In this document: positions 55,261 through 59,981 of the stretch, one piece after another
How positions within the stretch are numbered: position 1 is the stretch's first letter
How the letters are laid out: each line of letters starts with the position of its first letter
Assembly (NCBI RefSeq): GCF_902506295.1
Contig: NZ_LR733312.1
Coordinates: 1,564,095 to 1,628,094, forward strand
Direction: 5' to 3'
Length of the DNA stretch: 64,000 nt
DNA from: Luteimonas sp. 9C
GTDB taxonomy: Bacteria; Pseudomonadota; Gammaproteobacteria; Xanthomonadales; Xanthomonadaceae
Position numbers and translations under genes: made by a program
Notes under the pieces: model-generated
The model's input: only the letters and a program-made list of their open reading frames with translations
The model's database searches: none
What the model was told of the DNA's origin: nothing

Positions 55261-55710
55261 TCAGTCGACCGTGGGCCCGCGCATCGGCATGTCGGTGCCG
55301 GGACCGATGGTCATGCGAGAGTCGGGTTCCGCGTACTCGACGTCGGGATCGGCATCGAGCGCATCGAGCAGGCGCCGGGCCTGGGCGGCATCGAGCGTGG
55401 GCTCGATCGACACGACATCGGCGCCGACGGCGAGCCGGCGCAGCCAGGTCACCTTGCGGGGCATGCCCTTGGCATCCATGAGACCCGCGCCGCGCGCGCT
55501 TCCGGCGATGCGATCGGCGACCAGCGTCGGATCCCGTTCCGGCGCGCTGCCGGGTACGTAGCGGACGATGAAACGCTGCTGCATGGCACTGACCTCGCTG
55601 GACGGGGTGGCGGGCGGATCGCCGCCCATCACGCAGCCCGACAGCAGCAGGCCCGTGACGAAAAACGCGGCGCCGAAGCGCCGCGCGATTTCAGGATGGC
55701 ATCGAGGCAT
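55261..55710 (-). CDS. Lipoprotein with free-standing subtilase propeptide (I9) domain
   Basis: A 149-residue protein. The signal peptide ends in the lipobox LLSG-Cys26, and +2 Val does not suggest inner-membrane retention. Residues 45-130 align with the I9 propeptide of the subtilase at 58248-59981. Both share RFIV(R/K)Y, GSA, an RR pair, GADVV, an Asp-Ala-rich helix and ADP-V-E---E-D. No protease domain follows. I9 domains act as intramolecular chaperones and tight inhibitors, so this may be an anchored foldase or inhibitor for a neighbouring subtilase. An upstream Met exists; 55710 fits the signal peptide best. Confidence 0.75.
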   Translation of the reverse strand: MPRCHPEIARRFGAAFFVTGLLLSGCVMGGDPPATPSSEVSAMQQRFIVRYVPGSAPERDPTLVADRIAGSARGAGLMDAKGMPRKVTWLRRLAVGADVVSIEPTLDAAQARRLLDALDADPDVEYAEPDSRMTIGPGTDMPMRGPTVD

Positions 55711-55758
55711 GACGGTCTCCGCGGAGCACGCGCGTGCGTGCGACACCGCATGATGCCG

Positions 55759-55782
55759 TCACCCCGGGCGTACCCGGGGTGA
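55759..55782 (-). terminator. Hairpin after the lysyl endopeptidase gene
   Basis: A perfect 10-bp stem (TCACCCCGGG and complement) with a 4-nt loop lies 12 bp past the protease stop and 49 bp before the I9 lipoprotein ATG. There is no T tract, so readthrough into the lipoprotein gene is possible. Confidence 0.55.
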
Positions 55783-55794
55783 ACACATCCGGCC

Positions 55795-58113
55795 TTACCA
55801 GGTTGCGACCAGCGACGCGCCGCTGAAGGTCGCGTACGCATTGACCAGCACGTGGTAGATCCCCGCTGCCGGATTGCTGATGGTGCAGGTCTCGGCGTTG
55901 CCGGTCGCCCACGAGCGGCAGTCGTAGGTCGCAGTGGTCGGCTGGGTGCCCGCACGGAGATAGAGATCCGCATCACCCGTGCCGCCGCTCATCGCGACCG
56001 TCAGACTGCTGGTGCCGGCCGGGATCTGGATGGTCCAGAACTGCTGGCTGCCCGTCGCACCACTCAGACCGGTGACCGGCACGCCGTTCCGCAGACCGCC
56101 GTCTCCGCCACCTTCGCTCGGCGGGTTGTGGCGCGCCTGCACGCTGACGTTGGCGAACGCGGACACGCCGGCCACCTTCACGTAGTAGGTGCCCGCCTCG
56201 ACATTGGCGATACGCACCACCTCGTTGTTGCCCGGACGCTGCGAGATGAAATCGTAGGCATCGGGCTGCGGCTCTTCGTCCTGGCTGACGTACAGGGTGA
56301 CGTTGCCGCTGCCGCCCGAGGTCGTGACCGACAGCGGACCACTGACGCCTTCCGGCACGGCGATGCTGTAGAGCAGCGTGTCACCCGCCGCGCCCGACTG
56401 GCCCGACACCGGCGTGCGGTTGGTCAGCTCGATCGCATCCGGCGTGAGATCGCCCACCTCCACCTGCTGGGTGCGGGTGCGGGTGTTGCCTGCGTCGTCG
56501 GTCACCGTCAGCGCGACCGAATACACGCCGGCCGCGTCGTAGGTCTTGACCGGATTCGTTTCGGTGGACGTGGTGCCGTCCCCGAACGCCCAGTCGCGGC
56601 TGACGATTTCGCCGTCGTCGGTCGAGGTATCGGTGAAGGTCACGGTGAGGGTGTCGTTGTCGACGCTGAAGTCGAAGCCGGCCACCGGCAGGCCCGGCGC
56701 GCCGCCGCCGTCGGCACCGATGGTGTCGACGAACGCATCGCCCGTGCCTGCGGCATCGAGCCAGTCGCTCAGGCGTGTGGCCGCCGTGCCGCCGCCGGTC
56801 CACGACGTGAACAGACGGCCGTACCAGTCGACGTGGTCATCGCCGGTCGTCGAACACGAGGCGTAGCCGCCATGCAGCTGGCCGATCACGCGGCCTTCGG
56901 GGCTGTAGATCGGCGAACCCGAGGAACCGCCTTCGGTGGTGCCGCGCTGGTTCCACTGCACCCACAGATGCGTGTTGCCGCTGTTGCCTAAGTAGCCCTC
57001 GACGCGCAGCGGATTGTCGGAATGGGTGATGCGCTTTTCGGCGACGCGCGGATGGTGGATGCCGGTCGCGCCCGCCGGGGCCAGATCGCGGCGATCCCAG
57101 CCCGACCAGCTCAGGTTGAATGCCGGGTCGGCGGCGTCGTCGAACTCGAGCAGGGTGAAATCGGACGGCGCGTAGGTCGCGCGGACCACCGCGCCGGTCT
57201 GGTTCTGCGCCAGGCTGCCGTCGCCGTTGGCGCCGCTCTCGGGACTGCCGGGCGTGCGGCAGGTCGAGTTCTGGTAGTTCCAGTAGACGACGATGCTGGC
57301 CGCCGCGTCGGCGGTGCCCATCTGGCAGTGGTTGGCGGTCAGGAAGTACATCTTCTGGTCGCCGGCGGTGTTGTTGACCAGCGACCCGCTGCAGTACTCG
57401 ACACCGAAGCGCGTGTAGGCGCCCACGGACGGAATCTCGTCGCGGAAGTCGTCGCCGTCCGGACACACCACGTCGACGTTGCAGCTGCCCGACACACCCT
57501 TGGTCTGCGCGAGCGCGCCTTCGCGGGCGAGCCGGCCGAAGCCGAGGTAATCGTGGTTGACGCTGCGCAGGCGCAGCTTGAGGTCACCGACGCGCGCCTT
57601 CGGCACGACGACTTCGATGACCGCGTTGTCGCCCGGCACCAGCGGGGTCCACAGGCTGCCGTTCGCCTTGTTGTCGGCGGCGGTGAACGCGCGGATGGCC
57701 TCGGGGTTGGCGTTCCTGTCCAGACCTTCGGGATAGATCAGCAGGCGTGCGCCTTCGGGCAGATGGAATTCGGAGAACCCGAAGTTCAGCGACAGCGCGT
57801 CCTTCGACTCCACACGCAGGCGCCACACCAGGTTGCCGCCCGCGATCTCGTCCCAGTCACCGGCGTTGTTCGGCGTCAGGTCGACGGTGTGCGGCGTCGC
57901 GAAGCGGATCGGGCGCTGGCCCATGGCGCGGTCCTGCCGCGCGTCTTCGGCGCGCAGCCGCGCGGCGTCGACGGCCGGCATGCGCTTGAGCTCGACCGTC
58001 TGTTCGGCCGGCAGGCGGTTGTCGAATGCGGCCGGCCGCGCGTCGCGCGTTGCCGCCGCGGCAGCACCGACCGACAGCGTGCCGGCGGTGATGCAGGCGA
58101 TGAGTGTCTTCAT
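55795..58113 (-). CDS. Secreted lysyl endopeptidase (Lys-C, S1 family) with PKD and two PPC domains
   Basis: A 772-residue preproprotease. It has a signal peptide (1-21), then a pro-region to Lys205, where Lys-Gly206 matches the autocleavage site of Achromobacter/Lysobacter Lys-C. The catalytic triad is His262, Asp318 and Ser398 (GGSSGSP). All six protease cysteines (211, 217, 241, 263, 285, 420) align with the three known disulfides. His414 and Asp429 match the Lys-specificity residues; Tyr374 replaces Trp169 of Achromobacter protease I. A PKD domain (about 475-562) and two PPC domains follow. It should cleave after lysine outside the cell. Confidence 0.92.
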
Positions 58114-58142
58114 CCTGTTCTCTACCCCTCGTTGGTGACCAG

Positions 58143-58176
58143 AAAAAACGGAGCACACCGCGTACGGCGTGCTCCG
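58143..58176 (-). terminator. Rho-independent terminator of the subtilase gene
   Basis: On the minus strand an 8-bp perfect stem (CGGAGCAC and complement, 58169-58176 and 58149-58156) is followed directly by TTTTTTCTGG. It lies 71 bp past the subtilase stop and 29 bp before the Lys-C ATG, so the Lys-C gene would need its own promoter or readthrough. Confidence 0.85.
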
Positions 58177-58247
58177 CCGGCGGCAGGCATCACGATCACG
58201 ATGCCCGCTGCCTGCCCTTTCCTCCCCCGGAACTCCCCGACCCGCCC

Positions 58248-59981
58248 TCAGTTGTGGCTGGCGCGCAGCGTCACTCCGGAGAACGATGTGTAGCCGCGCA
58301 CCATCACGTGGTACGTGCCCGCCTGCGGCGTTGCGAACGAGCAGCTCTCGGTGTTGCCGGTGCGATACGGCCGGCAGTCGTAGGTCGACGTGGTCGGCGC
58401 ACTGCCGCGGCGCACGTACAGATCGGCGTCGCCGCTGCCACCCGAGGTCGCGATGACCAGGTTGCGGGCCCCCGACGGCACGGTGAACGTCCAGGTCCGC
58501 GTGCTGCCGGCCGCACCCGACACGCCCGTGACCGGCACGCCGTTCTGCAGACCGCCGGTGCCCGGATCCGGGTCGGGGCCCGGCGTGGTGCCACCGGTTG
58601 CGGCCGCCACCGCGGCGGCAGCGTCGACGATGCCCGCGCCGATCGGCTGGGACGGCGTGGACGGGAACGCGCGCGCGGTGCTGGTCAGCAGCGTCTTGAT
58701 CTGCGCCGGTGTCTTGGCCGGATTGGAGACCGCCTGGATCAGCGCGACGACGCCGGCGACGTGCGGCGCCGCCATCGAGGTGCCGTCGTAGGTCGCGTAG
58801 CTCTCGCTGCCCGGCGTGGTCTGGCCGCTGTTGAGCGTGGAGACGATGCCCGAGCCCGGCGCCGAGATCGTGATGCCGGCGCCGTAGTTCGAGAAGCTCG
58901 AACGCGCGCCGGTGCTGGTGTTCGACGCGACCGCGATGACATTGCTGCAGTTGGCCGGCGAGAAACCCGACACGTTGGCGTTGCTGTTGCCCGCGGCGAT
59001 GACCAGCGTGGTGCCACGGCCGACCGCGCCGTTAATCGCGGTCTGCATCGCGTTGCCGCAGGCGCCACCGCCGCCGAGGCTGAGGTTGATCACCTCGGCG
59101 GGGTTCGCATTCGCCGGCACGCCGCTCACGGTGCCGCCCGACGCCCAGATCACCGCATCGGCGATGTCGGAGTCGTAGCCGCCACCACGTCCGAGGACGC
59201 GGACCGGAACGACCTTCGACTCGGGCGCGGTGCCCGCGACGCCGACGCCGTTGTTGGTCACCGCGGCCACCGTACCGGCCACATGGGTGCCGTGCCAGCT
59301 GGACGCGCGGCCGCCGGAGAAGTCGCCGGGATCGCTCGGGTCCGCGTCGCGGCCACCACCGTCGCCCGCCACGGTGGGATCGATGATGAAGTCGTAGCCG
59401 GGCAGGATGTTCGCGTTGAGATCGCTGTGGCTGGCGATGCCGGTGTCGAGCACCGCGACCACGGTGCCCGCGCCCTTCGTGACGTCCCAGGCCTGCGTGG
59501 CGCGAATGCCGCCGGGGCCGGTGCCGAACCCGTACTGCTGGCTGAAACGCGGGTCGTTCGGCGTCCAGAACACCTGGTTGAGCTTGTCGACTTCCACGAA
59601 TTCGACGTTCGGATCGGCAGCGATCTGCCGCATCAGCGATTCGGCGTCCGCACGGTCGAGCTTGCGGCTGGTGCGCACCACGTCGGCGCCCTGCGTCATG
59701 CGCCGGACGTGTTCGAGGCGCAGCTGCTTGCCGCCACCGCTGACGGCGATCCGGCCTGCGGATGCGCGCAGCGCGGTGTCGATCGCGGCCGGATTCGCCT
59801 GCACGGCAGACCCGTCGCGGTACTTCACGATGAAGCGGTCGTGGGTGTCGGCCGATTGCAGGCCGCTGAGGTTGAGCCGCTCGGCGGCATTGACTGACAG
59901 CGGCGCGAGCGCCGCGAGCGCGAGGGACGTGGCGGCGACGAGCAGACGACGGCGCGGCGCATGACGCAGGTGATTCGACAT
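58248..59981 (-). CDS. Secreted subtilisin-like serine protease (S8) with PPC domain
   Basis: A 577-residue preproprotease: signal peptide (1-33, with a basic start), I9 propeptide (about 48-133), S8 domain (about 150-460) and a C-terminal PPC domain (about 478-577) after a Gly/Pro/Asp linker. The catalytic residues are Asp179 ([13 protein letters not shown]), His230 (HGTHVAGT) and Ser402 ([13 protein letters not shown]), with oxyanion Asn332 (AAGNSN). The PPC domain is closely similar to the last domain of the neighbouring Lys-C. The ATG at 59981 ([12 protein letters not shown]) is chosen over a longer open frame because it starts the signal peptide. Confidence 0.94.

Follow-up and report, generated by a model that had tools for sequence, protein, structure and literature searches.

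What could the propeptide of a secreted subtilase do when it is encoded as a protein of its own? This question is raised by a locus of Luteimonas sp. 9C that lies within the window analysed here, a stretch of 64,000 nucleotides (contig NZ_LR733312.1, positions 1,564,095–1,628,094). On its minus strand, an S8 subtilase gene, a Lys-C-like protease gene and a short gene for a propeptide-like protein follow one another in the order of transcription (Table 1). We refer to the last of these as the lone gene and to its relatives as the lone family. Based on the homology, linkage and residue conservation described below, we consider it probable that the lone protein serves as a lipid-anchored inhibitor dedicated to the subtilases encoded at its locus.

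Homology of the lone protein to an S8 propeptide

The reading frame of the lone gene is open and has no protease domain attached. Residues 44–130 of its product aligned with residues 47–132 of the neighbouring S8 subtilase with 37% identity over 87 amino acids (single BLASTP comparison, E = 8e-13). Elsewhere in its own genome the lone protein matched only two places at E ≤ 10, both of them S8 propeptides, with identities of 36% for that of the neighbour (C2:1623677) and 33% for that at C2:1837571. The protein carries the lipobox LLSGC at residues 22–26, and a simple rule identified a lipobox in 46 of 60 lone copies; lipidation and a location in the cell envelope are predicted from this signal. 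The original prediction, made from the sequence of the window, had described a 149-residue protein with a lipobox signal that aligns with the propeptide of the subtilase two genes upstream and has no protease attached. This description was borne out, and the motifs it had named are present in the alignment.

The original prediction had also identified the domain as an I9 propeptide and suggested a profile search, which did not recover this assignment. The Pfam profile PF05922 (Inhibitor_I9; cut-off 21.2 bits) gave no match at E ≤ 10 for the lone protein or the neighbouring subtilase, and the S8 propeptide scanned alone was likewise without a match. Because the subtilase's own propeptide fails in the same way, this failure tells more about the profile than about homology. 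Among 29 aligned lone members, PF05922 matched two at E ≤ 1 (best 0.089) and PF22148, a subtilase prodomain profile (Fervidolysin_NPro-like), matched 17. The PF22148 match of the lone protein itself was below the threshold (13.8 bits, cut-off 21), as was that of the S8 propeptide scanned alone (16.3 bits), and scans with Pfam and NCBIfam left the lone protein unnamed. At E ≤ 1 the genome contains a single match to PF05922, located at C2:2149970–2150296 (minus strand) in a 1203-residue frame far from the locus.

A sequence search of solved structures with the lone protein returned only a chance match, to adenylosuccinate lyase (E = 0.25). The AlphaFold model, computed from 29 lone sequences, contains 72 residues with a predicted local distance difference test score of at least 90, nearly all within the domain; confidence is low for the signal, linker and tail. 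Its order of strands and helices is that of subtilisin propeptides. Foldseek found nothing for this model at E ≤ 0.001, and its listing contained Aspergillus alkaline protease chains among ferredoxin-like folds of ribosomal proteins and enzymes. In comparisons with VIA-align, 1spb_P (the subtilisin BPN' prosegment) and 1scj_B aligned over 70/71 residues (Z 6.8, 19% identity), with residues 44–137 of the model, the tail part of which is of low confidence, corresponding to residues 7–77 of 1spb_P. The model thus weakly suggests a propeptide-like fold. Because unrelated ferredoxin-like folds equal or exceed the score of 1spb_P (up to Z 8.2), the propeptide assignment rests on sequence homology, and the same homology carries the placement of this small protein, with its predicted propeptide fold and no protease domain, among the stand-alone propeptide-like inhibitors.

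Linkage to subtilase genes across the family

Lone copies were selected by hand from the match lists by frame length and were then read. The family-wide search evaluated about 13 candidates in each genome and listed the best matches, with 62 matchless genomes outside this list; the short-frame entries among the matches listed supply the 23 loci from other genera. The 59 lone loci examined comprise 36 from Luteimonas, 17 from a second genus (group g16), one from group g48 and five from group g4; four candidates (L094, L093, L090 and L095) were excluded because they were judged to be S8 genes, and contig ends truncate three of these four.

A lone copy is present in 36 of the 52 Luteimonas genomes, and in each of these 36 loci a same-strand S8 gene lies no more than 6 kb away; a Lys-C-like gene accompanies the lone copy in 31. 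Among the matches listed, the lone copy of group g16 lies inside S8 arrays in 17/17 genomes, with Lys-C genes in the retrieved stretch of 14, and the single g48 genome shows the order lone-S8-S8. Group g4 has a lone copy in five of ten genomes among the matches listed, none of them with proteases nearby. Overall, 54 of the 59 lone loci have an S8 gene within 6 kb that is encoded on the strand of the lone gene; this survey, which the original prediction had proposed, argues against the possibility raised there that homologues occur mostly in loci lacking subtilases. The gene orders include S8-LysC-lone, LysC-lone-S8, S8s-lone-LysCs and S8-lone-S8-LysC, so the order varies while the set of protease and lone genes stays together. 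In two g16 arrays, the gene for a protein that was judged by eye to be metalloprotease-like, with a HEIGH motif and a PKD-like region (L132:10017–11933 and L125:11129–13111, both on the plus strand), separates the lone gene from the Lys-C genes.

The linked subtilases generally have propeptides of their own. An S8 gene with its own homologous propeptide is present in 33 of the 36 Luteimonas loci, whereas in one of the other three the S8 gene is truncated at the end of its contig and in two it is of another type, and all 18 linked loci from other genera have at least one S8 with its own propeptide. At L074:6517–8071 (plus strand), the S8 propeptide matches run across two reading frames in a frameshift-like manner, which could be a sequencing error. 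Outside the family, a class-wide search of 274 genomes at E ≤ 1e-14 found no lone copy; apart from the genome studied here it matched only a single genome, which belongs to that family, and both matches there fall in frames of S8 size.

The set also occupies a recurrent chromosomal slot, flanked by genes that we take, by resemblance, to be PaaD-like and asparaginase-like. The PaaD-like gene adjoins the set in 34 of 36 Luteimonas loci, the remaining two running into a contig end, as well as in all five g4 loci, the single g48 locus and 8 of 17 g16 loci. The asparaginase-like gene lies on the opposite strand at the other flank in 36/36 Luteimonas and 1/5 g4 loci. In group g4 (L117, L118, L119, L141 and L142), the slot holds the lone gene without S8 or Lys-C genes.

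A separate lineage under purifying selection

A quick tree placed 58 of the 59 lone rows in one supported group, which spans four genus codes. More careful, unrooted trees, built from 40 rows of lone proteins and 47 of S8 propeptides, separated the two by a branch with 100/100 support, also after removal of the tail; near-duplicates and the long-branch S8 rows L114_S8_5760, L051, L055, L050 and L113 were left out of these trees. L132, the domain of which was judged a duplicate of that of L126, was left out of both the trees and the residue counts. A single origin of the lone family is the simplest reading of these unrooted trees. The row outside the lone group in the quick tree is L131b, a divergent second copy without an alignable tail. 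It is encoded at L131:2575–2820 (plus strand) as a second lone propeptide-like gene in one array, beside two S8 genes, and is possibly an independent case. The ratio of nonsynonymous to synonymous substitution rates (dN/dS) was below 1 in 20/20 lone pairs (0.056–0.539, some pairs sharing rows), including two g4 pairs (0.100 and 0.115).

A retained interface and an altered cleavage position

Residues were counted over 58 lone rows and 114 S8 propeptide rows. Glu128 is present in 58/58 and Asp130 in 57/58 lone rows. In known subtilisin complexes, as described in PMC6993865, a Glu-x-Asp pair caps helices of the catalytic domain; the lone rows carry this pair, and the contact itself is predicted by position. 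Trp89, found in 53 of 58 lone rows, is not typical of S8 propeptides.

The position in register with the last propeptide residue of S8 enzymes differs between the two groups. With the S8 cleavage point inferred by alignment to solved mature chains, the residue before the cut is Leu (40), Ala (27), Phe (20), Trp (12) or Met (10) in most of the 114 S8 rows, the rest being other residues. The lone family is without that residue and instead has a proline at position 137 in 47 of 58 rows, as opposed to 0/114 S8 rows. The 11 lone rows lacking Pro137 comprise four chains that end there, the five g4 copies, which have Thr or Gln, and L080 and L091. The latter two copies (L080:7245–7499, minus strand; L091:9063–9323, plus strand) have no visible signal peptide and are located beside S8 genes of another type, the propeptide of which also differs.

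A proposed self-protective inhibitor

Based on these results, we propose that an S8 propeptide gave rise to the lone family a single time, in an ancestral member of the Lysobacteraceae, and that the family would have retained both the fold of the propeptide and the surface that holds the catalytic domain. The tail of the lone protein would lie along the active-site cleft of the protease, where the proline at the normal cut position may allow binding while hindering processing, so that the protein would inhibit the enzyme and resist cleavage. Anchored in the envelope, it could neutralise subtilase that matures prematurely or returns to the cell, and thereby protect the producer; this element of self-protection is suggested by the envelope anchoring that the lipobox implies. 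The original prediction had offered either a trans-acting foldase or a self-protection inhibitor. Its inhibitor half gains support from the kept interface and Pro137; its foldase half loses support, since nearly all linked S8 enzymes keep their own propeptides. The kept interface, the propeptides of the linked S8 genes and the replaced cut position together make an inhibitor fit better than a chaperone. A broader proposal, which we put forward tentatively, is that these proteins may constitute a bacterial family of immunity proteins, anchored in the membrane and passed on vertically, in which a trans-acting propeptide made uncleavable by proline serves as one inhibitor guarding a whole array of subtilases.

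Several observations weigh against this proposal. By the simple rule, 14 of 60 lone copies are without a lipobox, so predicted anchoring is common, not essential. Several of these 14 have an apparently ordinary signal peptide, L087 appears lipoprotein-like by eye, and L078, L080 and L091 have no recognisable signal; conversely, L072, L073 and L081 (LCC) were scored as lipobox-bearing but are doubtful. The Glu-x-Asp pair is frequent in S8 propeptides as well (Glu in 92/114, Asp in 96/114), and therefore marks a kept interface rather than a new one. Proline occurs among the last four propeptide residues in 29 of 114 S8 rows, though never at the last, and a proline in the tail could weaken the contact with the protease rather than lock it. 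The lone gene of the five g4 genomes is without S8 in the retrieved 14–18 kb; S8 is encoded elsewhere in the genome in the three for which it was retrieved, and the other two have S8-sized frames with the propeptide. A lone gene can therefore persist without a linked target. Moreover, 11 of the 16 Luteimonas genomes that lack a lone copy keep an S8 gene in the slot, four of them together with Lys-C, and these genomes evidently do without the lone gene; one of the genomes counted as lone-less, G039, is uncertain, its slot S8 beside the PaaD-like gene being cut by a contig end. Finally, the presence of Lys-C and lone genes is correlated across the 52 Luteimonas genomes (31/5/5/11, Fisher p = 1.7e-4, ignoring kinship), which may leave room for a role of the lone protein tied to Lys-C.

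Such a role could be regulatory, the lone protein keeping S8 inactive in the envelope and so delaying activation of the Lys-C zymogen until the two have been secreted, in which case it would govern timing and not immunity. The correlation and the fact that the three genes mostly occur together agree with a cascade of this kind, but five Luteimonas lone copies are accompanied by S8 in genomes without any Lys-C gene (two of these genomes being incomplete, at 73% and 89%), and we regard it as unlikely. The g4 copies, which are under purifying selection in the same slot without proteases, would instead suit a protein that binds another protease or serves envelope biology unrelated to S8. Given the S8 linkage in 54/59 loci and the S8 genes found elsewhere in the g4 genomes checked, such a role appears very unlikely.

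A membrane-tethered copy of the propeptide might also assist the folding of S8 after export. Lipase-specific foldases represent a comparable arrangement. The lone copy retains the whole propeptide fold in the model, and propeptides of mesophilic bacterial subtilases are described as both chaperones and inhibitors (PMC10580911). Nearly all linked S8 genes, however, retain their own propeptides (33/36 and 18/18 loci, as given above), which makes a foldase less likely; in 11 genomes the slot holds S8 but no lone copy, and a chaperone role does not call for the change of the tail residue to proline. We therefore consider a foldase distinctly unlikely. That the lone gene is a functionless, decaying remnant of a duplicated S8 gene would explain why the homology is confined to the propeptide part and why three copies lack a recognisable signal. 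It is extremely unlikely given that the copies form one group over four genus codes, that dN/dS is below 1 in all pairs compared, that most copies have some signal and that the interface residues are nearly invariant, and we rejected it on grouping, selection and interface conservation.

The neighbouring proteases and local elements

The mature part of the neighbouring S8 subtilase is closest to 5yl7 (a Pseudoalteromonas arctica chain), AprB2/AprV2 and BprV. The original prediction had labelled the second protease Lys-C; its protease domain was detected only as a match to Trypsin_2 below the threshold (24.6 bits, cut-off 27.6), and it is called Lys-C-like here. A terminator-like hairpin with a T-run is located between the S8 and Lys-C-like genes at 58178–58147; the region contains four such sites, where 2.1 would be expected. 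Between the Lys-C-like and lone genes, at about 55758–55782, inspection by eye showed a GC-rich inverted repeat that lacks a T-run. A promoter scan found no sigma-70-like site.

Table 1. Features of the lone gene and its protease neighbours, in window coordinates.
Feature	Position	Strand	Basis
Stand-alone propeptide-like lipoprotein, 149 aa (stop codon included)	55261..55710	-	Translation, genome matches, family
Signal peptide with lipobox LLSGC, residues 22–26 (Cys 26)	55633..55710	-	Sequence; predicted
Propeptide-like domain, residues 44–131	55318..55581	-	BLASTP to S8 propeptide, AlphaFold model, alignment to BPN' prosegment
Glu128-x-Asp130, by position the counterpart of helix-capping Glu69/Asp71 of the BPN' prosegment	55321..55329	-	Row counts and PMC6993865
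Pro137, in register with the S8 residue before the inferred cleavage point	55300..55302	-	Alignments, low-confidence part of model
Lys-C-like protease with PKD and two PPC domains	55795..58113	-	Trypsin_2 match below threshold
S8 subtilase with PPC domain	58248..59981	-	Profile and structure-sequence matches
Own propeptide of the S8 subtilase, residues 34–139	59565..59882	-	Start estimated; cleavage before Thr140 inferred

Relation to known systems

Stand-alone mimics of propeptides are described as inhibitors in eukaryotes (PMC6993865). Those classified in MEROPS I9 include Pleurotus peptidase A inhibitor 1 (POIA1), yeast peptidase B inhibitor and Arabidopsis subtilisin propeptide-like inhibitor 1, and apicomplexans encode the stand-alone propeptide-like proteins SUB1-ProM (Plasmodium) and TgMIC5 (Toxoplasma). 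Like the eukaryotic I9 inhibitors, the lone protein is a small separate product with a predicted propeptide fold and no protease. In contrast to them, its family is bacterial, mostly lipobox-bearing and clearly homologous to the neighbouring S8 propeptide, with a proline at the cleavage position. Plasmodium SUB1-ProM resembles the lone gene in being encoded beside subtilase genes, with the capping Glu kept (PMC6993865). The C-terminal residues of propeptides, POIA1 and YIB2 are described as tuning their potency (PMC10580911). The N-terminal propeptides of AprV2/BprV-type S8 enzymes are direct homologues of the lone family, which differs from them in forming a separate group with its own signal.

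Two bacterial systems offer further comparisons. PopD of Myxococcus xanthus is, like the lone protein, the product of a separate gene, and it is described as complexing and restraining the subtilase PopC, whose secretion it blocks (PMC6434023); the likeness is one of description. The intracellular protease inhibitor (IPI) of Bacillus subtilis, also a bacterial protein, is reported to inhibit a subtilisin that its own organism makes (PMC3901451), as we propose for the lone protein, but its target is intracellular and its fold is immunoglobulin-like, not that of a propeptide. A 40.8-kb array of secreted protease genes, the Proteolytic Region, is described in a relative, Lysobacter capsici AZ78 (PMC4742617), and is perhaps the kind of array found in group g16; the main text of that paper contains no word starting with "inhibitor". 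In the best-ranked open-licence literature of PubMed Central we found no report of a bacterial lipoprotein family of this type, which is weak evidence of absence.

The described stand-alone propeptide-type inhibitors of subtilases that we found are eukaryotic, whereas the lone family is bacterial and stays with its protease genes through rearrangements. The replacement of a hydrophobic residue by proline offers a simple idea of how a propeptide could become a lasting inhibitor. If the proposed role is true, it would show how Lysobacter-like bacteria could shield their own envelope while secreting several subtilases.

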